Virus record (IMG/VR): IMGVR_UViG_3300034093_001496
Location: 1 to 45,383 of that record
From: a virus
Strand: one strand, 5' to 3'
DNA length: 45,383 bases
The translations under genes and the position numbers were made by a program. Below the pieces are notes generated by a model. The model saw only the letters and a program-made list of their open reading frames with translations, was not told the DNA's origin and did not search any database. Within the stretch, counting starts at the first letter, position 1; the number at the start of each line of letters is the position of its first letter. Shown in pieces: positions 44 to 31,100 of this stretch.

Positions 44-1330
44 TTATAGTTTTCCGTAATCCAAACCCCAACTAGCCTTAACAGGGAAACCACTTCCTTC
101 AATGATTTCCTTCAATCCTCTAATCAAACTCTTATCAATATCAGTCGGAACATCAAAAAGAAACGAGTCATAGGTATATAAACAAAAGTTAATACCACTT
201 CCCTTTATGTAATCCAATATCTTTCTCATAACCTCAATGTTCATCTCAGTCTCAACGGCTTGTAGGAGATAGTTAAATACCTTTTGTGCATTTGGTTGTT
301 CTATCCAGCTCAATGGGATTTCTCTATGTGGTGTTTGTAGATATCCATTCTTTTGTGTTTCAATCCATAAGGTATCAATGTAATCAGCTACCGCATTAAG
401 ATATGGAATTTGTCTAAAATCATCATCAATACCACCATATAATAAACGGAACGTAATTCCCTTTCCCTCATTCACATCACATCCATATTGTTCAGCTAAC
501 CACTCATGCACATTACCTTCCGGCATATGGAACTTAATCAACTTACCAATTAGTCTTGGGTGATATGCGTTATAATCCATTTGTAGGAATATTCCATCCG
601 AAACGAAACATTCTCTACTACCATCCGTTTTATTGAGGGCGGCATAGTTCACACCACCATGTCTATTGGATGGTCTACCGGTTACCGTAAATGGATTATA
701 CTCCGTAAACACTAAATTATCGGGTGAAAGCTGTTTGGAAGCTTGAGGCCATCTATCAATGAATTTTTCCCTAACGACACGAATTCCGAATTGTTCAATA
801 TCTGAAAGGGTAGGTATAAACACTTCGTTGTACCACTTAAGAGTAGTAGTGTAAGGTTCATTATGGAAATACTTGTCAAATTGCGGTTCTATTGCTTCTA
901 CAATCTTCATTAGAGGAAGGGATTGTATCAAGTCATCTCTATACCCTTTGTGAGTTAGGGTTGAAAGGAGAGGATTTAAAGGGGCTTCATAATCAATTAC
1001 CTTTGCTTCCTTTCTAAAGTATGCTGAATCTACATCGTATAGATTTACCGAAACATTAAGAGTATGTAATATCTTCTTTTTTTGGAATATCCACTTTTGT
1101 CCGTTGGTATTAAGTATGGTCTCTATTTGCTCATTACTTAACGCAAGAGCGTCTGTATGTTTATGTGGTAGAATGTACAAACCATCGGAACATCGTACAA
1201 CTACGAGCGAAAGAGAAGTGTTTAAAGGATGCTTACTATTATCTACCCACATAGGATACCAAATAGATACTTCCATTTCCAGCTTTTCTTTTAATTGATT
1301 AATTTCCTCAATAGACTCAACAATATTCAT
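44..1330 (-). CDS. Short family A DNA polymerase with degenerate exonuclease region
   Basis: A 428-residue protein related to the Pol I (family A) polymerase domain, presumably acting in phage DNA synthesis. Motif A reads DYNAYHPR with the metal aspartate at about residue 252, motif B reads KGITFRLLYGG (K290, F294), and motif C reads TYDSFLF with the second aspartate at about 388. A GRPSN motif resembling the usual TGRLSS stands before motif A. Some usual residues are changed: the motif A glutamate (E. coli E710) is replaced by His, and the motif C His-Asp-Glu is Tyr-Asp-Ser. The first 190 residues resemble a 3'-5' exonuclease fold (YILPHKHTD, GQKWIFQKKKIL, YDVDSAYF) but lack the DxE and later acidic residues, so proofreading is probably absent. 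ATG at 1330 was chosen because the upstream in-frame TTG at 1366 lies inside the promoter. It is the only replication-type gene here. Confidence 0.8.
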   Translation of the reverse strand: MNIVESIEEINQLKEKLEMEVSIWYPMWVDNSKHPLNTSLSLVVVRCSDGLYILPHKHTDALALSNEQIETILNTNGQKWIFQKKKILHTLNVSVNLYDVDSAYFRKEAKVIDYEAPLNPLLSTLTHKGYRDDLIQSLPLMKIVEAIEPQFDKYFHNEPYTTTLKWYNEVFIPTLSDIEQFGIRVVREKFIDRWPQASKQLSPDNLVFTEYNPFTVTGRPSNRHGGVNYAALNKTDGSRECFVSDGIFLQMDYNAYHPRLIGKLIKFHMPEGNVHEWLAEQYGCDVNEGKGITFRLLYGGIDDDFRQIPYLNAVADYIDTLWIETQKNGYLQTPHREIPLSWIEQPNAQKVFNYLLQAVETEMNIEVMRKILDYIKGSGINFCLYTYDSFLFDVPTDIDKSLIRGLKEIIEGSGFPVKASWGLDYGKL

Positions 1331-1335
1331 AAGTA

Positions 1336-1367
1336 CAAAGATACAAAAAAAATCCCAAACTACCAAA
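1336..1367 (-). promoter_or_regulatory. Bacteroidota-type promoter of the polymerase gene
   Basis: On the minus strand TTTG (1364-1367) is followed by 20 bases and then TATCTTTG (1336-1343), a near-perfect match to the Bacteroidota -33/-7 pattern. Only five bases separate TATCTTTG from the ATG at 1330, so the transcript would have almost no leader. The -33 region lies within a 14-base sequence (1357-1370) repeated exactly at the tmRNA promoter. Confidence 0.75.
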
Positions 1368-1387
1368 TTAATGTAGAATGGGATTTT
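1345..1387 (-). terminator. Intrinsic terminator of the tmRNA, overlapping the next promoter
   Basis: On the minus strand AAAATCCCA (1379-1387) pairs with TGGGATTTT (1349-1357) around a 21-base loop, and a run of eight T follows (1345-1352). The stem starts at the last base of the tmRNA CCA end. The -33 box of the polymerase promoter lies in the loop and the T run lies in that promoter's spacer. Confidence 0.65.
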
Positions 1388-1772
1388 GGTGGAGATGAGG
1401 GGAATCGAACCCCTGTCTTACAAAGTAATCATAATACCAGCATATCACACGTTTAGGTAAAGTTTAATCTTATTCACTTTCCAAAATAATTGGGGCCGTA
1501 TGGTTAGTACAGCTTTCCACCAACCTATCAGTTTTTAAGAGCCGATAGGTAGAGCTCCTTTTTGTTCACTTCTATTTAAATGTTCCACGAGTGATGCGGA
1601 ATGAACTAAGCAGCGTATGCGTACTCAGAAGCCCCAATGAATTCCATCATAGAATCAAAGGTCATAGTTGACATTTCGTCAGTTGTTTGTTTGCGCAGAT
1701 TTAAAGAGCTCTAGCACATCTCTCTACGTGTGGTACTACCATTCTCATTGCAATCAAGTCCATGGCATCCCC
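1387..1772 (-). ncRNA. ssrA: Transfer-messenger RNA (tmRNA)
   Basis: A complete 386-base tmRNA, which rescues stalled ribosomes by trans-translation. The 5' end GGGGATG (1766-1772) pairs with CATCTCC (1391-1397) to make a seven-pair acceptor stem with G-U at the third pair, the alanine identity element. Discriminator A and an encoded CCA (1387-1389) follow. The T arm is AGGGG-TTCGATT-CCCCT (1398-1414). A long-range helix is made by CACACGT and ACGTGTG. A first pseudoknot lies at about 1693-1725, and two clear ones lie at about 1524-1558 (GAGC/GCTC with CCTATCGG/CTGATAGG) and 1495-1525 (GGTTGGT/ACTAACC with GCTGTA/TACGGC). The tag frame ends GASEYAYAA then TAG at 1606-1608. By position after the first pseudoknot, the resume codon should be near 1683, giving a tag of about 25 residues; a nine-residue tag starting at GGG (1633-1635) is the alternative. 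The gene sits between phage genes on the same strand. Confidence 0.95.
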
Positions 1773-1783
1773 ATTATATAATG

Positions 1784-1815
1784 TAAATATACGAAATTAA
1801 TTTGAAACTACCAAA
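1784..1815 (-). promoter_or_regulatory. Promoter of the tmRNA gene
   Basis: The minus strand has TTTG (1812-1815), a 20-base spacer and TATATTTA (1784-1791), 11 bases before the mature tmRNA 5' end. The surrounding TAATTTGGTAGTTT (1805-1818) is identical to the element at the polymerase promoter. It overlaps the stop codon of the preceding gene. The last base of the -7 box is A instead of the usual G. Confidence 0.6.
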
Positions 1816-2175
1816 TTATTGTTTAGAAAATTGTAAAGTATTTGGAAGATATTTATACAAATTACGCATATCCACACATCCTAATTTTATTGATTTTAAA
1901 TTTGATTGGGATATTTCATCATTACTACCAACCAATCTCCATACTATACTTGCTGCAGTAAAAAATGGATTTACTAAATATGATACATATTGATTTCTAC
2001 TTATTTCAAAAATAGGTGCTGCGTTATCATTTGATTTTTGTATAAAATACCTGTCAATATATCCTCTTTGATAATCGTTATCATCTGGAGTTGGTACAAA
2101 TGTTTCAATTTCTTTTACTTTAAACAAATGCCCATTTGTTATTATACTACTATATCTATCTGTATCAATTGCCAT
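1816..2175 (-). CDS. Small protein of unknown function, end of tail operon
   Basis: A 119-residue soluble protein that I do not recognise. It has no signal peptide or membrane segment and is of mixed composition, with motifs such as QRGYIDRYFIQK and NPFFTAASIVWRL. It follows the baseplate hub gene after 36 bases, with no promoter seen between them, so it is probably transcribed with the baseplate genes and may be a virion or tail-assembly component. Its stop codon overlaps the -33 element of the tmRNA promoter, which marks the end of the tail unit. Confidence 0.7.
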   Translation of the reverse strand: MAIDTDRYSSIITNGHLFKVKEIETFVPTPDDNDYQRGYIDRYFIQKSNDNAAPIFEISRNQYVSYLVNPFFTAASIVWRLVGSNDEISQSNLKSIKLGCVDMRNLYKYLPNTLQFSKQ

Positions 2176-2211: not shown

Positions 2212-4773
2212 CTAAGTTTGTAATGCTCTAAATGCTCCTGTTATAGTAGTTGTCCATAGCATATCAGTTAAACTATGTTCTATTTGTTGAACTTGAAATA
2301 TTCCATTTTTAGCATATTTATCTGGAATTCCTGTTATTTTAAACGTATCTCCAAATCTAACTCCGCTTATTCCCAATGTTTTAAATGTATAGTGTATTGG
2401 TAATGGGTGTGATAATCCACCTTTTTTTGCAAAGTAATCATTTTTTATTCTATCTAAAAATGAAGTATCATCAAAAGTATAAATACGAAATCTTTCACTA
2501 AATGTTTTATCATCATTAAGTCCATCTGCAGCTGTCATATTTTCAGGAATACCAGATAATTCAGGATTTGGTACTATTTCTATTTTTGCCAAATTACTAC
2601 TAATTTGTGATTTTTTAGCAGCCACAGTATCTTGATAAGCTTTTTCACTATCTACTTTGGCTTTTGCAATATCTTTATCCAATTGTACCCCAGCTGCCCA
2701 CTTTGCATTATATTGATTTTGTAAGTTTGTTTTAGCTGCACCAGTTGCAAGTTGTATTTGTGCATTAAGATTAGCTAAATCTATATCATTTTGTTTTTTG
2801 GCATCTCTAGCCAATCTTAATCTTTGTTTTGCGGCATCTTGTGGTGAAAGTGGTTTAGCGGCTGCTGCAGCTAACTGAGCTGCAGCTTGTGCATTTGCTA
2901 TTTGTTTTGATGTTAGTGGGTTGGCTAATAACTTTGGGTCTTTTGAAAATAAATCTGCTTCCGATGCAAAAAATCCACCTGTACTTAGATACGGCATACT
3001 TGGTTGAGTTACTCTCCCTAATCTTTGAGAAACTATTTGGGCGGCCATTTCCGATGGAATTGATAAATCTAATGTTGATTCTAAAAAAGGACAAAGATTT
3101 CCGCTATGGGAAAAATATTCATCATTTGGTTCTGTTTTTTTACCAACCCAATTTTCATCAACTACAGTTATTATAATATCACCTTTTGTTATTCCAAGAG
3201 CTTTATTATCAGCCTCCGCTTGAGTTTCAACCAATTGAAAATTCCAAAAATTATTTACTGCCGAAGACATTTCATTTAATATATCTAATAATACTTCTCT
3301 TATTGTTTTATTTGGTTGATTTAACTTTTCTACAAACATATCAAAGTTTACATAAAGATTTCTTAAATATCCCCAAAAAAATGGTGCTTCTTTTATTTTT
3401 TTATTAGGTGTGTTTATATTCAATGATGTTGATTGCACAAAACTTCTTTTATTAATAGAATTATCTATTGGTAGTGCATCCGAAAGTCCAGCAACTGCCA
3501 ATACACCTTTTTCTTTTTGTGTTATTTCACCTCTATTCCAAAAATATTGTCTAAAATCAGGAAGTTCTCCAGGTATAATTAATGCAGATGATTTAGTTGA
3601 AAACATATATCTAAATGCTCCAATTGCTGCTGTTTTTATATTAATACGAGCTTTTACACTTTTGTCACCAAATTTATATTCATCCAAACCACCATTTCTA
3701 TTTAAAATTTCAACGGCCAAATCCATTGTAATATAGTTGTGAGGTGACCAAAGTTTTTCTTTTGGAATATCTTGTCCTGCAACGTCTACAGTAGGTCCAC
3801 TTCCCTTTTCTCCAAATAATGGTCTATCAAATGACCAAAACCCACCATTTGAATCAGTTACCATAGCATCTGTTACAGCCTTATCCATATTTATAAAATC
3901 ATATGCACTTGTGGAGGTTGCATAATCAATTACATGCTGTATTTGTCTATGCGATGGTAATTGATTATACATATTGTTCCAAGTTCTTGCATTTGTATCA
4001 GTATTAGTGCTATCTAAAAGTTCAGGTTCATATGGTGGAACTTTTGCAGCTTGGCCAACATTAAATATTGTACCAGCCTTATCCTTTAATTGTATATGTT
4101 GTTGAGATTGTAAATATGTTGGTAGTCCTGGCGCTCCTCTTAATTTAACATTTACATTAAATTGCTCACCTTCATTAGTAACATTACCGCCAACTATAAA
4201 TCCAAAAAATGTATCATATTCTCCACCCGAATCCACTCTTAACTTATTGAGTGTATCATAATTCAAATTTCTTTCTGTTGCTTGTTTTACTATATTTGCA
4301 GGTCCTGCGGCATCCATCATTTTTATACCACCATTATCAGTATTCCATCCCCATTCTACACAAATTGTATATCCCGGTTCTAAAAAATATTTTTGAATTG
4401 CTTCCATTTGTTGTAATGAAAAACATTTAATTCCTAAAGTTGCTTCTTTTGATATTTGGTCTTTTCCTTCCTTTACTTCAAATGATATTATTCCGGGAGA
4501 TGGACGTAATCCTCTATCAGTACCACCAGCAACAGGAGCGCCAGACCAATTATACCCAATAGTACCAACAGAAGTTGGAGAACCATATACAGATGCTCCC
4601 TGTCCAGCTGCTTTAAATAACTCAAAATTATTATTTGAACTTAATATCAATCCATTACCAGCTCCAGCAAATACTCGCATCCAAACATTAAGTTTTGATG
4701 ATTGGATAGTATTAGCTCTACTTCTAATTTTGTTTGCAATCTTTGAATCTATATTTGATAAATGAGGCCACAT
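2212..4773 (-). CDS. Baseplate hub protein (gp27-like, with coiled-coil insert)
   Basis: An 853-residue protein, probably part of the central hub that closes the tail tube at the baseplate. Residues 86-140 hold the pattern RPSPGIISFEV followed by EPGYTICVEWGW, which I associate with phage baseplate hub proteins. The C-terminus (about 795-853) has GVRFGDTFKITGIPDKY, GIFQVQQIEH and WTTTITGAFR, resembling the last domain of gp27-like or late-control-D-like hubs. Between them (about 619-726) is a long Ala/Gln/Lys-rich helical stretch likely to form a coiled coil. The start codon overlaps the stop of the LysM gene as TAATG, indicating translational coupling. I see no lysozyme or peptidase domain, so the hub function rests on pattern similarity. 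Confidence 0.7.
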   Translation of the reverse strand: MWPHLSNIDSKIANKIRSRANTIQSSKLNVWMRVFAGAGNGLILSSNNNFELFKAAGQGASVYGSPTSVGTIGYNWSGAPVAGGTDRGLRPSPGIISFEVKEGKDQISKEATLGIKCFSLQQMEAIQKYFLEPGYTICVEWGWNTDNGGIKMMDAAGPANIVKQATERNLNYDTLNKLRVDSGGEYDTFFGFIVGGNVTNEGEQFNVNVKLRGAPGLPTYLQSQQHIQLKDKAGTIFNVGQAAKVPPYEPELLDSTNTDTNARTWNNMYNQLPSHRQIQHVIDYATSTSAYDFINMDKAVTDAMVTDSNGGFWSFDRPLFGEKGSGPTVDVAGQDIPKEKLWSPHNYITMDLAVEILNRNGGLDEYKFGDKSVKARINIKTAAIGAFRYMFSTKSSALIIPGELPDFRQYFWNRGEITQKEKGVLAVAGLSDALPIDNSINKRSFVQSTSLNINTPNKKIKEAPFFWGYLRNLYVNFDMFVEKLNQPNKTIREVLLDILNEMSSAVNNFWNFQLVETQAEADNKALGITKGDIIITVVDENWVGKKTEPNDEYFSHSGNLCPFLESTLDLSIPSEMAAQIVSQRLGRVTQPSMPYLSTGGFFASEADLFSKDPKLLANPLTSKQIANAQAAAQLAAAAAKPLSPQDAAKQRLRLARDAKKQNDIDLANLNAQIQLATGAAKTNLQNQYNAKWAAGVQLDKDIAKAKVDSEKAYQDTVAAKKSQISSNLAKIEIVPNPELSGIPENMTAADGLNDDKTFSERFRIYTFDDTSFLDRIKNDYFAKKGGLSHPLPIHYTFKTLGISGVRFGDTFKITGIPDKYAKNGIFQVQQIEHSLTDMLWTTTITGAFRALQT

Positions 4774-15198: not shown

Positions 15199-18100
15199 TT
15201 ATCCTTTATTATTAAGTATTAAATTATTTAAAATTTCTTTTAATTCTTTAATTTCTTCTGATTGTTTTTTTACAATTTCGTTTTGTTCTTTGAATGCTTC
15301 AATAAATAAACCTGCAAAATTACCATATGCCACCGCATATTCATCTAAATCTTCTGTGTATGATACAACTTCAGGAACAACTTCATTTACTTCTTGTGCA
15401 ATTACTCCCAACTGTCTTTTATCAGCTCCACCATCAGGAATAGTATCACTTTCATTATAAATTTTAGTATAGTAAATACCTCTTAATTGTAAAACTTTAT
15501 CCAAAGCGTTATCAACTGTAACAATATCCTTTTTCTTTCTTATATCCGAATATGCTACGATGTTGCCTGTTGCGTAAACCCCACCATTACAATATATTGC
15601 ATATCCACCAGCTGTTGATGATGTTCCAATACCAGTACAGTTATTTCCGTGTGAATGATAGAACATCCACCTTCCATCGTCTTGGAAGTAGATACCACCA
15701 TTACCACTTTCAAACATTAAGTGAGGTGCGTAAGATGATTCAATTCTATGACCATACCAACCATTTCTATTACCTTCCATTCTCCACGAACCATAAGTAA
15801 CGTTGTTTGGATACCAGTGTGCTCCGTTCTCACCAGCATAAAATCCAGTATAGTTAGCTGTGTACATCCACTTATACTTAAATGAATAGTTAGATGAACC
15901 TGCTAATTGAATACACAAGTCACTCATATCGTAATCAGAATAAACTCTAGTTCCTTCATAAGAACCAGCGTTTGCTCCCAATTTAATACCAGTATGATAT
16001 CCAATTCTTAAATCCGGATAAGGATAACCCCATCCACCACCTTCTTGGTATATAGAATATCCGTGTGTACCTTGTCCAGAGTTACCACCAACACCAGTAA
16101 AATCTAAACGAGCTATTCTACAATAGTTATTGAATTCACCAGAACTCATTTGAGAATATCCAGTAGGGTCAGTATAATATCCTGTGTTATCTCTATCATA
16201 GAATATTGGTGCTCTCATCGAACCTCTAGCATGCCAGTTGTGTCCAGTATCATACCAAACAGATGCGGGATATGACCAGTTAATACCTACTCCATAGTGA
16301 GGGTTATCTGCATTATCGAACCAACCAAATGATAATTCATCAGGGTTTTGGTTTGCAACTCCCATTACAAATCTTCTATATCCACCTGCTGTTTTGAATC
16401 CAGTCAATGATAAACATGCACCATGTGTACCATTACCACTATTTGCATATGCTGAAACTCCTAAGTGTGGATAATATGGTGCGTTTACCTGAACACTATA
16501 TCTATTATCATCTGCAAGTACCATTGTAACACCATTCGTAGATAATGTATATGGTCCAAACATTGCCGAATATCCACTTGATGCTGCCGTTACTCTTAAT
16601 ATTGCAAGATTTGATATACTATCAGGATTTAAAAAATATCCAGTATTATTAGAATCATAGAATATTGGTGCTCTAAAACTTTCAGTATTTTCCGCATATC
16701 TCTCAATCACATATCTAGTAAACCAAGAACCACCACCACCAGGAGTTTCTCTCAAGTAAACAGTAGTACCTTGAGGTTTCCACCACTCACAAGAACCAGA
16801 ACCCCATTGGTGAATACGGAACATTGCCGGCTCCGTAGAGAAGTTACCAGAAGTTGATACCTCCAATGAACGGAACGAACCATACGGTTTACCCCAACCA
16901 TATCCATAAGGGTCATGTGCCCACCAGCCAGAGTTATCTCCGTATTGTCTATTGGTATCTGCTCTCATTTTGTTTGCACCAAATATATTGTAGTATGATG
17001 TTCCGGCTTGGTCACTATAATATCCTGTATTATTACTATCATAAAACAATGGTGCTCTTAATGAATCTGCTGCTTCAAAGTATCCTTCTGAATATGTGTA
17101 TCCAGAATATAATAACATTCTAGTTCCACCATTTCTAAGTAATCTAAGATTATGATTTGTAAAACTACCAACTGCTGATAAACCACCAACGTGAGAGTAT
17201 ATACCAGTTTGAATTCCTTCATTTCTAGCATACACTCTTAAAATTGAGTGGGGTGCATTTGAAATGTGGATTTGAGAACCCCATCCCCCCTCATCTACCC
17301 AATCACTACCAGAATCACCAACATATAAGTTTCTTAATCTTGATGATGAATTTAAATCTAAACGGAATGTTGAATCTGCCGAATCATAAAATACCGGAGC
17401 TCTCATAGATGTAGTAGACCATGCCGTACCACCTTGGTCCCAATACCAAAACGTTGCAGATGATACATTTCTAAGTTCAAGTTGGTCAGATGGATTTTTT
17501 AATATATTAAATCTACCAGCTCCAGCTTCACCACTAGCACCAAAAGTAATTACAGAGTAATTATTTTGAGCATCTACCAATCTAATGTTTTCATTGTAAT
17601 TACCGGCAGTCCATCCACCAATTCTAGCCATACCAAAAATACGCAATGCAGTTCCATTAGTAGCTGGGTCTAATAAATACCCAGTATCATCTCTATCGTA
17701 GAATACTGGTGCTCTAGCACTTGTTCTAAATTCTACATATGAACCATCTTGGGTTGGATAGTTTCTTTGTGACCAATCCCAACTACTTCCATTAACAGCA
17801 CCTCTACCACCATACAAATACCATGCCCCATCGGTAGCTATGTGTTGTAACATATATCCTAAGTTACCATTAGTTGATGTTTGATATATAGAAGCGTAAG
17901 TACCAGTAATAACAAGTTGTGCATGAGATGAACCAAATGGATTACTACCCCAATTTCCATTAACATTAAGGTATTGTAAATTAGTACCATCAAGTCCATC
18001 AAAATAGTATCCAGTATTAGATATATCATAATATCTTGGTGCCAAAACACCATAGTCTGCTCTTAGATAATTATCACTCTTACCAAATGAACCAATTTCA

Positions 18101-21100
18101 GTTCCTGCAAATGGTGAGTTATTAAAGAATCTAGTTCCACCATATCCAGATGCTGCTCCAATATCAACACCAGTATGCCATGCTAATTGTAAGTGATTAC
18201 CAGAATAATATCCATTACTATAATTTCTAGGATGAATCATATAATAAGGTTGGCTATCCGTTCTCTGTCCCCAAGTAATACCACTATCAACAGATGCTTG
18301 CGATGGGTCAGTTGTAGAGTTTGATAAATTTATATGTCTTGTTGTACCAGCACCACTACCTGCTCTATATAAAAATGTACCACCAGTATCATAACGATAA
18401 TCAGAGAATATATTAGATACCGTAACTCTATTACTTACAGTCATTATACCATCATAATCCACTCTTACTCTAACTTGAGGTAAATCAGTACCAGTTCCAG
18501 ATGTACCAGTTCCAGATTTAATTCCTATAATAAAATCAGAACGTTCTGAACCAGGTGTATCTCTATATTGTGCTCCAAGCCAAATATGTGGTGCAACATC
18601 ATATGAAGTACCTCCACTATAATTTAATAAACCATTTATTGCAATACCAGCGTAATAACCAGTACCACTTCTAGTAGAATAAGGTCCTAAATGTAAGTTA
18701 TATGTATTTCCGTTAATTTCACTTTCACCATTTGTATAAGATGAAACCCTTAATCTACCACCAGCATTATTTGAAGCTTGTACTTGACCTGTACTAATAT
18801 TTAATCTATTTATACGAGATTGTCCATCTCCATCAAAAAGATATGTTCCATCATTTCTATCAATAAATCTATTAGCGTAAAAATCACCCAATGCCTCAGA
18901 CCCAGCTGCTATTGCTGTATCTAATTCTTCGATTTTAAATCCTGCTATTTCAGCTTGTCCACTGTATCCACTATATAGATAATTGTGTAACCAACCCAAT
19001 TGCATAAATTTTGCATATCCATACCAAGTATATCCAGCACCAGAACCAGCTGGTCCGATTGTCATTGTATATTGAGTCCAAGAAGCAGGTGGAACTCCAT
19101 TCCAATAGTAAGGTTGTCCCCATCCACCATTATCAGGTTGTCCGTAGTTATAAGTTGCTTGTGTAAATGATAAATAACAATATGGATTACCAGATGTTGC
19201 TCTAATCCAAGCTGATACTTTATAAGTTTTAGTTGGGTCAATTGCTACCCATCCAGATTGTCTATGCCCACTCCACGCACTACTACCAGCAAATGCAACA
19301 TCACCAATAGGTGCATCACTTAATCCACTTCTATATGTTGTATCGGGCCAAATAAATCCACCATCTGCTCCACTCCAGTTTCTAGTAAAATATTTACCAT
19401 CCGGAACAAACATACCAAATAATGTTGAACCATTATTAGTTCTAGTTGAAATATTACCTCCAGTTTTTAAAACAGATAATATTGATGTACCATTAGGGTC
19501 TAAATAATATGCGTTATCACTATAATCGTAATATCTTTGTGCGTACATATAGCGATATGCTGTCATATCACCATTTGCCATATCCATTCTCAGCATTACA
19601 GTATTCGTACCACCACCAACATTATTTTCAATACCAGAAGTTTGTGCTCTAGTAAAATCAATTGTGTTTATTGGATTATTATGCCAAATACCCCAAGGTG
19701 TAGATTCTTCTTTGTAAATCCAAGGAGATGTTTCCCCACCACCTGATGGATTTACTGACCTTAAAAATACAGGATATGTAGTTGAATTAACAGCCTGCAT
19801 TCTAATACCTTCGGCTGCACTATTACCATTCATAGTAATATTTGTGCCGTTATTATTAAGAGTTAATGAATATAAATTAGATGTACCACTATTAATATAA
19901 TATGTTGTACCACCCACATAAATTGTACCATCAAATCTTGCATTTCCACCACTGTAAACGAATTTATCACCTCTAACTCTTAGGTATGTGCCATCTGTCA
20001 TATACCAACCACCACCCCAACCAAATCCAATTTCTTCATCTCTTAAGAAAGTTGAAGTACCTCTACCAATTACAAAGGCATCATTATTATTTATTAATTG
20101 TACAGATCCATTTATGAATATTCTGTTATTTGATATTGTATCAATTACTGATGTGTTATCGGTAGTTGTGTATGAAAAATCCGTTGTACCAAATCCTACT
20201 CTTTGTGTAGAGTTCATTTGCATACCAGTTGTACCATTAGTTGCTAAATACATTGTATTAGCTCCTTCTGCATGTAATGTTAAACCACCTGCTAAGTTAC
20301 TATAAAAATATCCACCATTTGCTCTATATTGACCAGATGCCGCGTATGTACTTCCAAATAATGCAGCTCCAGCTCCATTTACAGAAACATCATTTCCTAA
20401 TTGTAAATTACTATTAGATGCTGCTGTTGTATTTCTTACACCAACTGTACTACCAAATTGAACCGAATCAGTTGTTCTAACATTTTGGTTCATTGCGTAT
20501 AATTCGTTAGCACCCTGTCCAGTATTAACGGTTGCGAATGTTACACCATCGGTAGTTCTTACGTTTTGGTCCATTAAATAAACCTCAGTTACACCTTGTC
20601 CAGTATTAATTGTACCTGATATAACAATGTTACCAGTTCCCTGAATATTTCCATTTACATATGTATTATCATCAAATGACCATCTATCATTACCCTCATC
20701 CCAAATAAATTGTTTTGTTGCTGCGTTTCCTCTCTTAACTTCTATACCAGCATTTTCAGTTGGTGCAGTTGCTGCTCCAATATCTGCATTTAATGTAATG
20801 ATATTATCACCTACATTTAAAGTTGTTGTATTAATATATGTTGTTGTACCACTTACAGTAAGGTCACCACTAATTGTAGCGTTACCAGTTACTGCTAATG
20901 TAGTACCATCAAATCTTAAATTTGCTTCAACGGTTGCGTTTGGAGCAGTTCCGTTTAATGTGATTACACCATTATCAGTTGTACCTGTTAATGATAATAA
21001 TCCCGATGTACCTGCTGAACCAGAAGTTCCTGATGTACCACTACTTCCAGAAGTTCCTGAGGTGCCAGACGAACCAGAAGTTCCTGATGTACCTCTACTT

Positions 21101-23124
21101 CCGCTTGTTCCAGATGTACCACTACTTCCGCTTGTGCCAGATGTACCACTAACTCCAGAAGTTCCTGATGAACCGCTTGTTCCACTACTACCGCTTGTTC
21201 CAGATGTACCACTACTTCCGCTCGTACCACTACTTCCAGAAGTTCCTGATGAACCGCTTGTTCCACTACTACCGCTTGTGCCAGATGTGCCACTACTTCC
21301 GCTTGTTCCACTACTTCCAGCCGAACCACTCACACCAGAAGTTCCAGAGCTTCCACTTGTACCACTACTACCGCTTGTTCCGCTGCTACCGCTTGTACCA
21401 CTACTTCCGCTCGTACCACTACTTCCAGCCGAACCACTCACACCAGAAGTTCCACTCGTGCCACTACTTCCTGCAGAACCACTCACTCCACTTGTACCAG
21501 CAGACCCAGACGAACCCTGCACTCCATTTATACCAGAAGTTCCTGAAGTTCCAGATGAACCTTGTACTCCACTTATACCAGAAGTTCCCGATGTTCCACT
21601 TGTGCCTCTACTTCCACTAGTACCAGAAGTTCCATTAGAACCTGATGAACCTTGTACTCCACTTATACCAGAAGTTCCCGATGTACCTCCACTTCCAGAA
21701 GTTCCTGATGTACCACTTGTACCAGAAGTTCCTGATGAACCACTACCCCCACCGGCTCCACTTATTCCTGATGAACCAGAAGTTCCTGATGTGCCTCTGC
21801 TTCCAGAAGTTCCCGATGTACCACCACTACCAGAAGTTCCTGATGTACCACTAGTTCCATTTGTACCACCTCCTCCAGTTATACCACCACTACCAGCAGT
21901 ACCGCTTGTGCCAGAAGTTCCCGAAGTGCCACTTACACCAGAAGTTCCCGAAGAACCGGTTGTACCACTTACACCAGATGTACCAGCCGATGCATTCGTA
22001 CCAGATGTTCCAGCCGAACCAGAAGTTCCTGCTGAACCAGACGTTCCTGATGTGCCGCTTGTACCACGTGTGCCAGAAGTTCCTGCTGAACCTGTTGTAC
22101 CACCACTACCAGAAGTTCCAGCTGAGCCTGTTGTACCAGCCGAACCATTTGTACCGCTTGTGCCAGAAGTTCCTGATGTACCAGCACTACCACTAGTCCC
22201 ACTACTTCCACTCGTGCCAGATGTTCCAGAAGTTCCCGATGTACCTGCCGAACCAGTTGTACCCGATGAACCAGTTGAACCAGAAGTTCCTGATGTACCA
22301 GCACTACCAGTAGAGCCAGATGTACCACTACTTCCAGAAGTTCCCGATGTACCACTGCTTCCACTCGTGCCAGATGTTCCAGAAGTTCCGGATGTACCTG
22401 CCGAACCAGTTGTACCTGAAGTTCCAGAAGTTCCTGATGTACCTGATGTTGCCGCTGCTGTTTTAAAACCAATTCTACCAGTTGTAGAATTATAAACTAA
22501 TACATCATCGGTTGTTATATCTGGTTTTAGTGAACCAATTCCAAATGATAATGAGCCCGTAATTCCTACACTACCAGTAAATTCTTGCTTATCGTTTTGT
22601 GCATCACCAAATTTGTTACTTCCACTTGCGTAGATTATTGATGATGAAATATATGTTGCAAATAATTCAGTTGTATTTATTTTTCCAGCTACAGTTACAT
22701 CACCTCTAAAAATACCACTACCAGTTACAATAAGATAATCTCTTATAGTTACTGCAGTATTTACTTCTAATCCTCTATTTGGAGAAATTATAGCTGTTGC
22801 TGAACCTGATTTTAATCTATCCAAATCACCAATTGATGATGCGTTTATATTGAATAATCCACTACCATCTCCTCTAAATAAAGATGCCGATATTGATGAT
22901 GAAATATTAGCCGAACCACTAATTTGTGTGTTTGCTTTTATTTGTAACGGATTATTACCAAATGAATCAATTTCATCCGTTTGTATTTTAGAAGCACTGA
23001 AGTTTCCTACAATACTTATAGATTCAGATGATGCGTTTAATATAGCTGCACCACTTACAAAAAGTGATATACTATTTACACTAGTCTGATTTAAACCATT
23101 AGGATTATTACCGTTAAACTCCAT
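15199..23124 (-). CDS. Giant tail fibre with collagen-like shaft and S74 chaperone
   Basis: A 2641-residue fibre. Residues 1-225 are beta-rich units (LKSGSATAIISPNRGLEV, SSSIIYASGSNKFG) that match the other giant fibre. Residues 225-708 are a Gly-X-Y collagen-like shaft made mostly of Gly-Thr-Ser and Gly-Ser-Ser triplets without proline. Residues 720-2500 form a long receptor-type region with at least eight copies of a motif like FYDSNNTGYYxDP. The end is a peptidase S74 intramolecular chaperone: AYSDIRKKKDI, with S2526 and K2531 in the Ser-x4-Lys dyad spacing known from endosialidase fibres, then QLGVIAQEVNEVVPEVV and a coiled-coil tail. Self-cleavage before S2526 would release 116 residues. 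It probably recognises the host surface. Confidence 0.9.
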   Translation of the reverse strand: MEFNGNNPNGLNQTSVNSISLFVSGAAILNASSESISIVGNFSASKIQTDEIDSFGNNPLQIKANTQISGSANISSSISASLFRGDGSGLFNINASSIGDLDRLKSGSATAIISPNRGLEVNTAVTIRDYLIVTGSGIFRGDVTVAGKINTTELFATYISSSIIYASGSNKFGDAQNDKQEFTGSVGITGSLSFGIGSLKPDITTDDVLVYNSTTGRIGFKTAAATSGTSGTSGTSGTTGSAGTSGTSGTSGTSGSSGTSGTSGSSGTSGSTGSAGTSGTSGSTGSSGTTGSAGTSGTSGTSGTSGSSGTSGSAGTSGTSGTSGTNGSAGTTGSAGTSGSGGTTGSAGTSGTRGTSGTSGTSGSAGTSGSAGTSGTNASAGTSGVSGTTGSSGTSGVSGTSGTSGTSGTAGSGGITGGGGTNGTSGTSGTSGSGGTSGTSGSRGTSGTSGSSGISGAGGGSGSSGTSGTSGTSGTSGSGGTSGTSGISGVQGSSGSNGTSGTSGSRGTSGTSGTSGISGVQGSSGTSGTSGINGVQGSSGSAGTSGVSGSAGSSGTSGTSGVSGSAGSSGTSGSSGTSGSSGTSGSSGTSGSSGTSGVSGSAGSSGTSGSSGTSGTSGSSGTSGSSGTSGSSGTSGSSGTSGTSGSSGTSGSSGTSGVSGTSGTSGSSGTSGTSGSRGTSGTSGSSGTSGTSGSSGTSGTSGSAGTSGLLSLTGTTDNGVITLNGTAPNATVEANLRFDGTTLAVTGNATISGDLTVSGTTTYINTTTLNVGDNIITLNADIGAATAPTENAGIEVKRGNAATKQFIWDEGNDRWSFDDNTYVNGNIQGTGNIVISGTINTGQGVTEVYLMDQNVRTTDGVTFATVNTGQGANELYAMNQNVRTTDSVQFGSTVGVRNTTAASNSNLQLGNDVSVNGAGAALFGSTYAASGQYRANGGYFYSNLAGGLTLHAEGANTMYLATNGTTGMQMNSTQRVGFGTTDFSYTTTDNTSVIDTISNNRIFINGSVQLINNNDAFVIGRGTSTFLRDEEIGFGWGGGWYMTDGTYLRVRGDKFVYSGGNARFDGTIYVGGTTYYINSGTSNLYSLTLNNNGTNITMNGNSAAEGIRMQAVNSTTYPVFLRSVNPSGGGETSPWIYKEESTPWGIWHNNPINTIDFTRAQTSGIENNVGGGTNTVMLRMDMANGDMTAYRYMYAQRYYDYSDNAYYLDPNGTSILSVLKTGGNISTRTNNGSTLFGMFVPDGKYFTRNWSGADGGFIWPDTTYRSGLSDAPIGDVAFAGSSAWSGHRQSGWVAIDPTKTYKVSAWIRATSGNPYCYLSFTQATYNYGQPDNGGWGQPYYWNGVPPASWTQYTMTIGPAGSGAGYTWYGYAKFMQLGWLHNYLYSGYSGQAEIAGFKIEELDTAIAAGSEALGDFYANRFIDRNDGTYLFDGDGQSRINRLNISTGQVQASNNAGGRLRVSSYTNGESEINGNTYNLHLGPYSTRSGTGYYAGIAINGLLNYSGGTSYDVAPHIWLGAQYRDTPGSERSDFIIGIKSGTGTSGTGTDLPQVRVRVDYDGIMTVSNRVTVSNIFSDYRYDTGGTFLYRAGSGAGTTRHINLSNSTTDPSQASVDSGITWGQRTDSQPYYMIHPRNYSNGYYSGNHLQLAWHTGVDIGAASGYGGTRFFNNSPFAGTEIGSFGKSDNYLRADYGVLAPRYYDISNTGYYFDGLDGTNLQYLNVNGNWGSNPFGSSHAQLVITGTYASIYQTSTNGNLGYMLQHIATDGAWYLYGGRGAVNGSSWDWSQRNYPTQDGSYVEFRTSARAPVFYDRDDTGYLLDPATNGTALRIFGMARIGGWTAGNYNENIRLVDAQNNYSVITFGASGEAGAGRFNILKNPSDQLELRNVSSATFWYWDQGGTAWSTTSMRAPVFYDSADSTFRLDLNSSSRLRNLYVGDSGSDWVDEGGWGSQIHISNAPHSILRVYARNEGIQTGIYSHVGGLSAVGSFTNHNLRLLRNGGTRMLLYSGYTYSEGYFEAADSLRAPLFYDSNNTGYYSDQAGTSYYNIFGANKMRADTNRQYGDNSGWWAHDPYGYGWGKPYGSFRSLEVSTSGNFSTEPAMFRIHQWGSGSCEWWKPQGTTVYLRETPGGGGSWFTRYVIERYAENTESFRAPIFYDSNNTGYFLNPDSISNLAILRVTAASSGYSAMFGPYTLSTNGVTMVLADDNRYSVQVNAPYYPHLGVSAYANSGNGTHGACLSLTGFKTAGGYRRFVMGVANQNPDELSFGWFDNADNPHYGVGINWSYPASVWYDTGHNWHARGSMRAPIFYDRDNTGYYTDPTGYSQMSSGEFNNYCRIARLDFTGVGGNSGQGTHGYSIYQEGGGWGYPYPDLRIGYHTGIKLGANAGSYEGTRVYSDYDMSDLCIQLAGSSNYSFKYKWMYTANYTGFYAGENGAHWYPNNVTYGSWRMEGNRNGWYGHRIESSYAPHLMFESGNGGIYFQDDGRWMFYHSHGNNCTGIGTSSTAGGYAIYCNGGVYATGNIVAYSDIRKKKDIVTVDNALDKVLQLRGIYYTKIYNESDTIPDGGADKRQLGVIAQEVNEVVPEVVSYTEDLDEYAVAYGNFAGLFIEAFKEQNEIVKKQSEEIKELKEILNNLILNNKG
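21000..22450 (-). repeat. Nine-base tandem repeat coding Gly-Thr-Ser shaft (fibre 2)
   Basis: About 1.45 kb of degenerate nine-base repeats coding Gly-X-Y triplets. The opposite strand is open for 565 codons reading Pro-Glu-Val/Pro-Leu-Val repeats, a by-product of the repeat and not a gene. Confidence 0.9.
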
Positions 23125-25167: not shown

Positions 25168-28100
25168 TTAACTTAAATTTTTACCAGTTGTGAATCCTAA
25201 ATAGGTTGTACCATTATCATAAGTATAGAACGCTAAAACATCAGTTCCAGACGATGTTAATAATGGTGCACTTCCACCTGCCCAATCAACATTAACAGGC
25301 CATGTTATAGAAAAGGCCCCAGCATTTACAACTACTAAAGTAAATCCAAATGCATTTGATGCTGGTGCATTTGAGAATGATATTGTTGCAGTACCATTAA
25401 ATTGTCTTCTAAAGTTATTTGCCGTAGATAAATCTAATGTTACGCTTCCACCAGTTCCTTGATTTGAATATGTTTCTCTATATGTTGTAGATGCTACATT
25501 ACCGGTTACCGATAAAGTAGTTCCATCAAATAATATTCCAGATTCTACTTGAACTCCAATAGGTGTATCAACATATGTAAGTAAACCATTATTAGTTGTA
25601 CCAGTTAATTGAAATCCAGATGTTCCAGACGTTCCAGAAGTTATTCCAGGTGCGGACGTTCCTGATGTTCCAGTTAATCCAGAAGTTCCTGATGTTCCAG
25701 AAGAAAATCCCGGAGCGTTTGTACCACTTGTTCCGCTTGTACCAGTTTGCCCAGATGTACCAGAAGTTCCCGATGAAAATCCCGGAGCGTTTGTACCAGA
25801 AGTACCAGCTAAACCGTTAGTACCACTAATTCCTGATGTTCCGGAAGTTCCTGATGTAACTCCATAAAATGATGTACCACTAGTACCAGAAGAACCTCCA
25901 CTCCCACCAGTTCCTTGTGCTCCAGAAGTTCCACTGCTTCCAAACATTGTACCATTCACTCCAGAAGTTCCTGATGTACCCGAAGTTCCACTTGTACCAG
26001 AAGAACCTGACGTTCCCGATGTACCACTAACTCCAGAAGTACCCGATGAACCAAATAATGTACCATCCAATCCAGACGTCCCAGACGTACCGCTTGTACC
26101 AGACGTTCCTGATGTACCACTTATTCCAGAAGTTCCGGATGTACCAGAAGTTCCTGAAGAACCAAACATTGTACCATTCAATCCAGAAGAACCAGAAGTT
26201 CCTGATGTACCAGAAGTTCCACTACTTCCACTTGTACCAGAAGTTCCTGAAGTACCACTACTTCCAAATAGTGTACCATCCAATCCAGAAGTTCCTGAAG
26301 TTCCGGATGAACCACTTTCTCCAGAAGTTCCTGATGAACCACTCTCTCCAGAAGTTCCCGATGAACCACTTTCTCCACTAGTACCACTACTACCAAAATA
26401 TGTACCATCTAAACCAGAAGTTCCTGATGTTCCATCCATACCAGAAGTTCCAGACGTACCTGCTCCAGACGTTCCCGAAGTTCCATCACTTCCAGAAGTT
26501 CCAGATGAACCAAAATATGTTCCATCTATACCAGACGTTCCTGAAGTACCCGAAGTTCCCGATGTGCCAGAAGTTCCAGCTCCAGAAGTTCCTGAAGTAC
26601 CATTCTCTCCACTTGTACCACTACTACCAAAATATGTCCCATCTAAACCAGAAGTTCCTGATGTACCGCTTGTACCAGATGTTCCCGAAGTACCTGCTCC
26701 AGAAGTACCTGAAGTACCATTCTCTCCACTTGTTCCATTACTACCAAAAAATGTTCCATCTAAACCAGAAGTTCCTGACGTTCCATCACTACCATTGATT
26801 CCACTTGTTCCAGAAGTTCCATCACTACCATTGATTCCACTTGTACCAGAAGTTCCCGAAGTTCCATCAGTACCAATACCACTCGTACCACTACTACCAA
26901 AATATGTCCCATCTAAACCAGAAGTTCCTGATGTACCGCTTGTACCGCTTGAACCACTTGTACCAGAAGTTCCCGAAGTACCACTACTACCAAAGAATGT
27001 TCCATCTAAACCAGAAGTTCCTGATGTGCCACTTGTACCGCTTGTACCACTACTACCAGACGTTCCAGAAGTTCCATCAGAACCAGAAGTTCCCGATGTA
27101 CCATCCGTTCCATTTATTCCGCTTGTTCCTGAAGTTCCATCAGTACCAATACCACTTGTTCCAGAAGTTCCCGATGTACCGCTTGTGCCATTACTACCAC
27201 TTGTGCCCGATGTTCCGTTGGAGCCTGACGTACCTGATGTTCCAGAAGTTCCCTCACTACCATTTGTACCAGAAGTTCCTGAAGTTCCATCACTACCACT
27301 TGTTCCAGAAGTTCCATCAGAACCAGAAGTTCCCGATGTACCATCCGTTCCATTTATACCACTTGTTCCTGAAGTTCCATCACTACCACTTATTCCGCTT
27401 GTTCCTGAAGTTCCATCAGTACCGCTTGTTCCTGATGTACCACTTGTTCCAGACGTTCCATCAGTACCAATACCACTCGTACCGCTTGTACCATCACTAC
27501 CAGTTGAACCACTTGTTCCAGAAGTTCCATCACTACCGCTTGTTCCGGATGTACCGCTTGTTCCAGACGTTCCTTCACTTCCCGTTGTACCTGAAGTTCC
27601 TGATGTGCCACTTGTACCAGAAGTTCCCGATGAACCATCACTACCACTTGTTCCAGACGTTCCATCACTTCCCGTTGTACCTGAAGTTCCTGATGTGCCG
27701 CTTGTGCCAGAAGTTCCCGATGTGCCATCAATTCCAGAAGTTCCCGATGTACCTGCTGAACCAGTTGAGCCAGAAGTTCCCGATGTGCCAGAAGTTCCAG
27801 AAGAACCCGTTGAACCAGATGTACCACTACTACCACTCGTTCCAGAAGTTCCCGATGTACCACTTATACCATCACTACCACTTGTTCCAGAAGTTCCTGA
27901 AGTTCCTGCTGAGCCTGAAGTTCCAGAAGAACCTCCCGTACCAGATGAACCACCACTACCGCTTGTTCCAGAAGAACCTTCTCCACCACTTGTACCTGAT
28001 GTTCCGCTTGTGCCAGAAGTTCCACCACTACCGCTTGTTCCTCTCGTCCCAGAAGTTCCTGCTGAACCAGAAGTTCCCGATGAACCTCCCGTACCGGTTG

Positions 28101-31100
28101 AACCAGAAGTTCCTGAAGTACCTTCACTTCCCGTAGTTCCAGAAGTTCCCGATGAACCACTACTACCACTACTTCCGCTTGTTCCCGAAGTACCCCCACT
28201 ACCAGAAGTTCCCGATGTACCTGCACTACCAGTAGAGCCCGATGTACCACTTGTTCCAGAAGTTCCCGATGAACCACTTGTGCCACTACTACCAGCAGTA
28301 CCGCTTGTTCCAGAAGTTCCTGATGTACCGCTTGTTCCAGATGTTCCCGATGTACCAGAAGTTCCTGATGTACCACTACTACCGGCTGTTCCAGAAGTTC
28401 CCGATGTACCTTCACTACCCGTAGAGCCAGATGTTCCAGAAGTTCCTGATGTACCTTCACTACCAGTTGTTCCCGATGTGCCAGAAGTACCTGAAGTACC
28501 TGAAGTACCTGCTGAACCTTCCGTACCAGAAGTTCCTGAAGTTCCTGAAGTACCTGCTGAACCCTCCGTTCCAGAAGTTCCAGACGAACCCTCACTACCA
28601 CTTGTACCAGAAGTTCCTGAAGTACCTGCCGACCCTTCCGTTCCAGAAGTTCCAGAAGTTCCCGATGAACCTGCCGAACCTTCAGTTCCAGATGTACCCG
28701 CCGAACCGGCTGAGCCAGAAGAACCTTGCACACCTGCTACACTTCGTGTTTCTAATATTTTTGTTGCACTATTCCAAACAACTACATTATCAGAAGAACC
28801 AGATGCTAATGTACCTATTCTTATACTACCACTAACACCAATACTACCACTAATTGTAAGCGATGCGTTAATTGTTTGGTCTTTATTAATTTGTAAGAAA
28901 GATGCCGTATCAGTATTTCCAGAAGATAATGCAAACATTGCGTAAGATGCTGTGTATGCTAATGAAGCAGTACCAACAAACATTGATGCTGTTTGTGTTT
29001 TTTGTATAAAGTTTGTTGTATCTACATTCGATGCGTTTTGTGCAAATAATGCGTATGATGCGGTAATTGCTAAAGATGCCGTACCAACAGTCATTGAAGA
29101 TGTTACTGAATTTTTAACATAGTTAGTCAAATCCAATTCACCTAAGTTAGCTACATAAGATGCAGTTTGTGCGAATGTTGAATTAACTGCAAACGCCACA
29201 CTCATTGAAGATGTTTGTGAATTTCTAACTAAGTTTTGAATATCAGTTAATGCTGATAATGATGCCGAATCAAATCCAGTAACACTTCTTGCAGTTTCTG
29301 CGATAAATGCATATGATGATGAAAGTACAGAACCAATAACTCTATCACCAGGTATACTTCCGTTTATTAAACTACCACCACTACCAATTACGGCATGTCC
29401 ACTAGTCAATCCACTAAATAGAATTTGAATAGTATCATCATCAATCGATTTTATTGTGCCAGGTAAAATTTGGTCTTCCGAACCAGTTGCGTAAACCTGA
29501 ACCATTGGGTATCTAATTCCCAAATTGTGTACAATTGTTAAACTACTAACATTATTAAATGATACTGTTTCAGTTAATGAAGTTTCAGGTTGAGGAATAT
29601 AATGTCCTCTAGTTGGGTCATATCTTAAAATATCGTAATCAATACTTGCAGTTGGTCCATTTCCCTGATATGTGTATGTACCCAATAAACCCCCACTTAC
29701 TATTGGAGAATATATTGAAGTACTTCCAGTTATTTTATTAGCTCTTAGATTATTTCCAACATATACATCTCCCCAAATACTAGCCGATGCGTTTACAACA
29801 AATCCTTTATCAGGAGAAATTGATGCGGTGAATGAACCACTCTTTAATATAAATGTTTCAAATGATATATTTGCTAAACTAATATTTGTCAAACCACTAC
29901 CATCTCCAATAAATGTTGAACCACTTGCTACTATAACATTTCCACCACTAACAAACACCGAACCACTCACAGTCAATGAACCAGAGAATATTCTAACAGA
30001 TGTATTAACTTCTAATCCTTTGTTTGGTGATATTACACCCTGAACAGAACCAGATATGATTCTATCTAATTTAAGGTCTTGCAATGCGTTTGCAGGAATA
30101 TTAAATAACCCACCACCATCACCTATATAAAGTGCTGCTGTTATTGGTACGTTTACATCTAATTTTTCTGGGTCTATAATTGCTCTACCAGAACCAGATT
30201 GGATTCTATCTAATTGTAAATCTTCAAGTGCTGATGCCGGTATATTAAATAATCCACCACCATCTCCATCGTAACGAGATGCTGATATTGACCCACTAAT
30301 AATTACAGAACCAGTAAATACAGAACCATAATAAGAGCCAGAGTTTGAACCTACAGTAGAGAAATTTCCCTTTGTTGTTACAATAAATTGTATTCCACTT
30401 TGTACAGATGCAGTTGCTGAACCACTTGCTATTAAAGGTGCTGCTGATGCTTGTACATTTATTAGTTGAGAACCATCTCCAATAAATGTGAATGCTCTAA
30501 CACTACCACTTACGTCAATTGAACCCGTAAATCTAGAACCAATGGCCGAACCAGTTGCTCCAGTTGTTACTACAAAGGAATCACCGCTTTGAACTGATGC
30601 TGTTGCAGAACCACTACCAATGAATGGTGCAGCTGCTGCTTGTACGTTACTAATAAATCTACCATCACCAACAAAGAATTGTGATTTTAAACTACCACTA
30701 ATATCCACACTACCCGTTATACGAGTACCAATTTGAAAATCCAAACCAGAACCAGTTGCTCCAGTTGTTACTATAAAAGTATCACCACTTGCTACCGAAG
30801 CCGTTGCCGAACCACTTGCTATTAATGGAGATGCTGCAGCTACTACATTTGTTAATTGAGAACCATCTCCTAAAAATGTAAATGCTCTAATACTTCCACT
30901 TACATCAACGGAACCTGTAAATTGAGAACCAAAAATAGAACCACTAACTATATCAGTTGCTATTACTCTAAATCCAAAATCAGGACTTACCGATGCGGTT
31001 ACACTACCACTTTTAATTTCAGTAGATATTAACGCATCTTCTGTCAATGCTGAACGAGGGATATTTCTTAAATAAGTACCAACGCCATATATGAATGAAG

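Follow-up and report, generated by a model that had tools for sequence, protein, structure and literature searches.

A one-piece phage tmRNA gene with a long conserved tag

Does a phage that carries a tmRNA gene have a working route of ribosome rescue of its own, and does its tag carry the same message as the tag of its host? tmRNA tags are usually regarded as short degrons. A phage tag family of more than twice the length of the sampled host tags, conserved in its amino acids, would give a handle on what is gained from phage-own ribosome rescue, and it lets one ask whether tags carry instructions beyond 'degrade'. It could also serve as a marker for phage-tagged peptides, e.g. the -GADYAVAA forms. 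The window, i.e. the whole stretch of DNA that was analysed, is the 45,383-nt virus record IMGVR_UViG_3300034093_001496 (positions 1–45,383), which may be a fragment.

Phage tmRNAs are known and uncommon, as a preliminary description of this DNA had stated: they are reported in 402 of 18,146 phage genomes, i.e. 2.3% (PMC9004378). Its remark that it knew of few cases in phages of Bacteroidota needs a correction: tmRNA genes have already been published for the flavobacterial phages Calle (Cellulophaga; PMC8776804) and Panino (Maribacter; PMC11590407). These two, known here from the published descriptions, resemble the present gene as tmRNA genes of, in our case presumably, Bacteroidota phages. 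Phage-borne tmRNAs from other hosts include those of the mycobacteriophages (Bxz1 group, Wildcat) and Bacillus phage G (PMC4131195), and the Wildcat tmRNA is described as the most expressed lytic gene (PMC7474061). PMC12656738 also belongs to the phage tmRNA literature drawn on. We noticed no description of the long tag family in the text of open-licence papers (figures, supplements and closed journals lie outside this scope). While phage tmRNA as such is known, the long conserved tag appears to be new.

The preliminary description had proposed a complete tmRNA gene. A covariance-model search with the Rfam tmRNA family bears this out: RF00023 gives a full-length match on the minus strand at exactly 1387–1772 (95.2 bits, gathering threshold 47, E 5.3e-36, model positions 1–374 of 374), and at gathering thresholds it is the sole Rfam match in the window. 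The E-value limit of this model is unspecific when used alone, with matches in 14 of 14 control genomes including archaea, nine of them over the cut-off; therefore only cut-off matches were counted. The window thus holds a complete one-piece phage tmRNA gene with the following parts:

1387–1772, minus strand: one-piece tmRNA gene (ssrA), complete, 386 nt, CCA encoded (RF00023 profile match)
1766–1772, minus strand: acceptor stem, 5′ strand GGGGAUG, with the G3-U pair (RF00023 match and alignment)
1391–1397, minus strand: acceptor stem, 3′ strand CAUCUCC, with the discriminator A at 1390 and CCA at 1387–1389 (RF00023 match and alignment)
1398–1414, minus strand: T arm AGGGG UUCGAUU CCCCU (covariation)
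1726–1753, minus strand: long-range helix H2, 5′ strands in three segments (drawn structure and pair count)
1418–1452, minus strand: long-range helix H2, 3′ strands (drawn structure and pair count)
1692–1725, minus strand: pseudoknot PK1, the weakest of the three (pair count)
1566–1601, minus strand: pseudoknot PK2 (pair count)
1523–1557, minus strand: pseudoknot PK3 (pair count)
1459–1513, minus strand: PK4 region, drawn as three successive hairpins (pair count)
1606–1680, minus strand: tag frame DEMSTMTFDSMMEFIGASEYAYAA and TAG stop, resume codon GAC at 1678–1680 (frame, and ARAGORN on the related locus L030)

The alanine-type acceptor stem and the encoded CCA, both claimed earlier, are present, and the third acceptor-stem pair, on which alanine identity depends, is G-U in the window and in 33 of 33 rows of alignment A1. 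The 73 polymerase-linked tmRNAs end in CCA in 48 cases, in CAA in 17, in CTA in 7 and in CGA in one, and the 25 copies with no encoded CCA would need CCA repair after transcription. The two-piece (permuted) form was not seen: the window gene is colinear with the one-piece RF00023 model, in which it differs from the tmRNA of methylophage Melnitz, described as two-piece and linked to a glutamine riboswitch (PMC9004378). ARAGORN called no tmRNA in the window despite the RF00023 match. In 13 related loci, two of them without a tmRNA, it called nine of the 11 tmRNAs, placing the tag on the conserved frame in six and elsewhere in three. Odd ARAGORN tags such as VNKPEHYLSAP proved to be misplaced in the six calls inspected, the conserved tag frame being present in all of these RNAs.

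Most of the tmRNA structure is backed by covariation. Counted over the 33 rows of A1, the 75 drawn pairs form in 93.4% of cells as against 38–46% when slid by 1–3 columns, a comparison in which the drawn structure is favoured by having been drawn from one of these sequences. Both-side changes occur in 26 of the 75 pairs (16.5 in shuffles), counts that related rows inflate. In its number of further pair types the alignment does not exceed shuffles (53 versus 51.2, with 141 of 500 shuffles as high). More specifically, the T arm has both-side changes in three of its five pairs with 100% of cells paired, and the H2 segments are paired in 100%, 93.2% and 85.5% of cells. Compensating changes lie in outer H2, and in six rows four of the five pairs of the innermost segment are broken. 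The T arm and long-range helix of the preliminary description are thereby upheld, with 85.5–100% of cells paired per helix. Its three pseudoknots can all be drawn, and they stand to different degrees. PK3 has both-side changes in four of four pairs of stem 1 and four of seven of stem 2 (89.5% and 90% of cells paired), and PK2 has them in three of the four pairs of stem 1, stem 2 being invariant and thus uninformative. PK1 stands in part: stem 1 is paired in 80.3% of cells, stem 2 in 62.1% and one additional pair in 81.8%. The PK4 region, drawn as hairpins only, is paired in 98.8–100% of cells. As to the sets used, RNAalifold on 44 rows gave a poor consensus, which we tentatively attribute to insertions; the column screen used 39 rows, dropping L028, L056, L059, L062 and L065, and the pair count used 33, dropping also L041, L018, L032, L014, L070 and L057 with a differing PK2 region. 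The truncated L058 was excluded from all three sets.

The gene lies between phage genes, with these nearest neighbours:

44–1366, minus strand: DNA polymerase gene, downstream; ORF of 440 aa from TTG, ATG at 1330 being the likelier start (phrog_17, E 6.8e-11)
1816–2175, minus strand: upstream gene, 119 aa, no family found in profile searches
2212–4773, minus strand: upstream 853-aa gene, no family found in profile searches

The tail-to-replication boundary proposed earlier is correct, as the gene sits between the tail block and the DNA polymerase gene. The strand, left unstated then, is minus, the same as that of the T4-like tail sheath, tube and baseplate genes and of the polymerase gene. In tblastn the window polymerase is 25.2% identical to a gene of phage immuto annotated as DNA polymerase family A. 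Two very long proteins of 2641 and 3384 aa with collagen-like repeats (window 15199–23124 and 25168–35322) are probably tail fibres; towards its end the first has a Peptidase_S74 chaperone domain.

With the polymerase gene as bait, 98 viral stretches with a relative were found and 80 were kept. RF00023 matches 72 of these 80 contigs, 71 over the cut-off and one truncated, and in 72 of 72 the tmRNA lies upstream of the polymerase gene on the same strand, at a distance of 12 to about 1,190 bases. In seven of the eight contigs with no match the sequence breaks off less than 600 bases upstream of the polymerase, and one of the seven, L293, has a tmRNA piece at the contig end. The eighth, L033, has the full upstream sequence and no tmRNA, i.e. 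a true absence. Among named relatives at a greater distance, phage immuto has no RF00023 match and Mel-JY01 a 17-bit fragment only, neither having a tmRNA over the cut-off; LR756508 has a full match of 72 bits. The preliminary description had named a chimeric contig as a danger to its claim. An assembly chimera with host DNA, or host contamination, is rejected on the synteny in 72 of 80 related contigs; no observation spoke for it, and we give it practically no weight.

The polymerase query had no relative in genome contigs. Compared with phages at the DNA level, in a search set for distant matches, the window tmRNA gave 106 records, none covering 80% of the query, and 18 of the 20 matches listed align only the last 31–35 bases. 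A wider set of 206 viral loci was assembled from a scan for the PK4 region (115 loci) and from the tag-ending pattern described below (91 further loci). The polymerase follows downstream in 67 of the 134 loci with a downstream ORF called, and 105 of the 187 loci with an upstream ORF called have one that is similar to the 853-aa protein. The remaining neighbour ORFs fall in many small clusters, and the tmRNA lineage occurs in more than one gene context.

The preliminary description had also given the gene its own promoter and terminator, and candidates for both can be pointed to:

1784–1791, minus strand: −7-like element TATATTTA, 11 nt before the mature 5′ end (read from the sequence)
1812–1815, minus strand: −33-like element TTTG, 20 nt further up (read from the sequence)
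1345–1387, minus strand: predicted intrinsic terminator, a stem and a run of 8 U (fold)

The pattern TTTG-N15-22-TAnnTTT[GA] is found in all 42 distinct upstream regions from the 71 polymerase-linked records (window not counted), as compared to 1.7% in shuffles; the upstream regions are related to each other, and this pattern, like the boxA-like one below, was written after inspecting the sequences. Unlinked copies, meaning those whose called ORFs do not match three window proteins, have it less often (11 of 43, shuffles 0.8%); some such loci have too little flank for a link to be seen. One of 32 Bacteroidota host tmRNA genes has the same full pattern and six have TAnnTTTG. We take the TTTG / TAnnTTTG pattern to be the Bacteroidota promoter consensus; the promoter-like signal is assigned to the Bacteroidota type on this consensus, and not on any resemblance to the 32 sampled hosts. 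On the 3′ side the fold of 1330–1390 has −16.1 kcal/mol (z −4.15, none of 200 shuffles as good), while a simple generic terminator scan found no terminator there. The U run of the tmRNA terminator lies a single base ahead of a TATCTTTG element that precedes the polymerase gene (window 1336–1352), and the tmRNA terminator and the next promoter may overlap.

A different upstream motif, the boxA-like AGTTCTTTAAAATAT and its relatives, is seen before the tmRNA in L403, L429, L437 and others of L388–L476. It starts 14–15 bases before the mature 5′ end in 31 of 44 unlinked phage copies, and it is present 10–17 bases before the 5′ end in 12 of 32 Bacteroidota host tmRNA genes, a likeness between the two, and in 6 of 54 linked copies (shuffles 1–2%).

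The host that had been suggested, Bacteroidota, is inferred with evidence on both sides. The promoter consensus and the relatedness to Flavobacterium phage immuto, which is among the few isolates with a related sheath and polymerase, speak for it indirectly, while the best sheath match is a Microcystis phage and counts against it. The window gene is not simply a Bacteroidota host tmRNA. It has the same parts, but its tag is long and the phage copies lie across a branch from the hosts. Specifically, one branch splits 40 phage tmRNAs (12 polymerase-linked, 28 others) from 32 Bacteroidota tmRNAs, with support of 100/100 for whole sequences and 97/85 for the core. The taxa are phage and Bacteroidota only and the root is a midpoint root, which in the core tree falls among phages; therefore neither a phage clade nor its source is established. 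The best 30 Bacteroidota host RF00023 scores are 177–200 bits and the listed hosts go down to about 120, as compared to 95 for the window.

The tree bears on the idea that the gene is a left-over or spare host copy tied to prophage integration as an attachment site. tmRNA genes are reported as common integration sites (PMC12595487) and such a role has been suggested for phage Panino (PMC11590407). The phage/host split on one branch nevertheless disfavours an attachment-site copy, as do a tag that differs from that of the host and the position among phage genes in many contigs. Moreover, there is no integrase family in the 18 window proteins scanned (the ORF at 36334–45132 and small ORFs lie outside that scan). 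We consider this origin extremely improbable.

SmpB (PF01668) was found in none of 26 records (23 from the phage group, two of which break off short of the tmRNA, plus three named phages related to it), nor in any of 15 further large viral records, all with the reservation that records may be incomplete. Of 14 control genomes the same search gave a match in 10, and the four with no match are archaea. Because no phage SmpB was found in these 41 large records, the phage most likely borrows the SmpB of its host. This is different from the huge phages, which are reported to carry SmpB as well as tmRNAs (Al-Shayeb et al. 2020, PMC7162821).

The tag frame ending in YAYAA, noticed earlier, is confirmed: DEMSTMTFDSMMEFIGASEYAYAA followed by TAG at 1606–1680 on the minus strand, with ARAGORN on locus L030 giving the same resume codon and tag as read in the window. 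Counting the window, 73 copies hold 23 tag DNA forms and 19 peptides of 23–26 residues, and the 24-residue window tag is the commonest form (20 of 73). The core is like ST[MW]TFEDxMAFVGADYAVAA; the window ends in -YAYAA and its relatives mostly in -YAVAA. By comparison, Bacteroidota host tags have 9–10 residues in 32 of 34 loci called by ARAGORN, e.g. GENNYALAA, GEYNYALAA and DNNYSYRLAA, a selected sample (the 30 highest-scoring loci out of 198 genomes, and four from genomes picked up by a tag pattern). Host tags often start with GE, DE or DN and end with YALAA or a relative. The phage tag consists of a host-like start (GE or DE), a conserved stretch such as STMTFEDLMAFVGA and a host-like end YA-x-AA. 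The inner stretch of about 15 residues, which looks helix-like to the eye, is absent from 32 host tags, and we infer that the long phage tag arose by insertion into a host-like one.

Codon changes indicate that the tag is under protein-level selection. Relative to the consensus of the 17-codon class there are 229 codon changes, of which 118 are synonymous (51.5%). A neutral simulation of the 17-codon block, with uniform mutation and no tree, puts the synonymous share at 20.1%, the highest value among 300 runs being 27.9%. The window's own tag falls in the 18-codon class, where codons were compared pair by pair and 191 of 557 differences are synonymous (34%); the simulation covered the 17-codon class only. 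In every class compared, over half of the base differences sit at third codon positions. Selection is clearest in the larger class and weaker in the 18-codon class. The synonymous excess in the tag codons implies that the tag peptide matters.

A decoy would hardly need such a peptide. According to this alternative the RNA would tie up the SmpB or alanyl-tRNA synthetase of the host and stop its trans-translation, as the tRNA-like-domain-only form of DS6A may do. That form, and tmRNA inhibition by a similar molecule, are published (PMC4131195, PMC11915505), and a 112-nt match over the cut-off in LR756508 looks DS6A-like. Yet a pure decoy can do without a tag, while here the frame is open, protein-level selection is indicated and the mRNA-like half with its pseudoknots is retained. 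The tRNA-like domain of the tmRNA kind is common to both, but DS6A is described as little more than that domain (PMC4131195), whereas the window gene has a 24-codon tag frame with coding selection in its family. We regard the decoy as very unlikely. In LR756508, a 484-kb uncultured phage, the 112-nt match (L147, LR756508.1 414804–414915, 58.2 bits) looks tRNA-like-domain-only and stands beside a full tmRNA (L145, 92434–92880, 72 bits) with a long tag ending in KPAAV, which looks like a DS6A-like pair in one record.

Where does the tag occur? The pattern used for its ending was the commonest one, G-A-D-Y-A-[VI]-A-A-stop, which differs from the window's own ending SEYAYAA. It matched at least 120 stretches of viral contigs; in the 206 viral loci it occurs in 129 places, and each of the 129 is the long tag, in a locus that also has a tmRNA profile match. 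None of 395 Bacteroidota genomes has it (the window's SEYAYAA lies outside that scan), which also argues against a chimera, and 189 of 198 sampled Bacteroidota genomes have a tmRNA over the cut-off. When the window's tag and a second form were run by tblastn against 50,697 phage records, nothing matched; in the control the LR756508 tag found itself at 7e-16, with 34 residues as compared to 24–25, so that distant tags may be missed. There was no match in plasmids at E up to 1, nor of one tag form in solved structures at E up to 10. Thus, among the viral contigs, Bacteroidota genomes and plasmids searched, the tag was found only in viral sequence.

Our results point, with good but not complete confidence, to a working phage tmRNA that uses host SmpB. 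It would be transcribed from a host-type promoter, trimmed by host enzymes, charged with alanine via the G3-U pair and bound by host SmpB. It would then enter ribosomes stalled on broken or end-less mRNAs, where the ribosome would resume on GAC and add alanine and the 24-residue tag ending in -YAYAA. The chain would be released at the stop codon of the tag and the ribosome recycled, while the tagged protein would pass to host proteases such as ClpXP through its Ala-Ala end. The inner stretch seems to be kept for its amino acids, so it is most likely a binding element, e.g. for a protease adaptor. What the sequence itself shows is the anatomy of the RNA, the conserved tag frame, signals that resemble a promoter and a terminator, the conservation among relatives and the lack of SmpB in the records searched. 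Charging, SmpB use, tagging, proteolysis, timing and the role of the inner stretch are predictions, and so are the functions proposed in the preliminary description, i.e. keeping ribosomes free late in infection or marking proteins for proteolysis. Counted against a working tmRNA are the ARAGORN miss, the score of 95.2 bits below those of hosts, the absence in L033, immuto and Mel-JY01, the weaker protein-level selection in the 18-codon class, the possibly fragmentary records in the SmpB search and the 25 of 73 copies with no CCA.

If the tmRNA is a working one, its tag could still serve chiefly for something other than degradation, the inner stretch tethering the rescue products or hiding them, perhaps through a phage protein that it binds, or slowing their destruction. 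That stretch is conserved in amino acids and lacking from the 32 host tags, and its strict motif occurs only in tmRNA tags, with no instance outside them in six-frame translations of the viral loci scanned. On the other hand, the Ala-Ala end typical of degradation is kept in 19 of 19 peptides (73 copies; the search rule itself required the last Ala) as in the 32 host tags, and we find a non-degradation tag unlikely. It is somewhat more plausible, and still only a tentative proposal, that a single lineage of phage tmRNA, present in large phages of more than one kind, has remodelled its degradation tag, so that rescue products would go to a different receiver in a quality-control channel of the phage's own, with a hairpin at the start of the tag as a second message. 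A different receiver, if true, would mean a phage or host adaptor, or another protease, than for host-tagged products.

The hairpin concerned is the following:

1669–1681, minus strand: small hairpin at the resume codon, UGACG AAA UGUCA (predicted pairing; other forms in relatives)

The first tag codons can pair as GUAGA/UCUAC, as GAAGA/UCUUC, as GUUGA/UCAAC (one sequence) or, slightly earlier, as UGACG/UGUCA. The residue pairs V..T and E..S change together with the forms. In single sequences the hairpin is not significant, each form being common in AT-rich shuffles, and its retention in relatives is suggestive only. Finally, the tmRNAs of L018, L028, L030, L017, L054 and L059 look mosaic, with like outer parts and different tags, PK2 or PK4 modules, as if tmRNA pieces had been swapped between phages.
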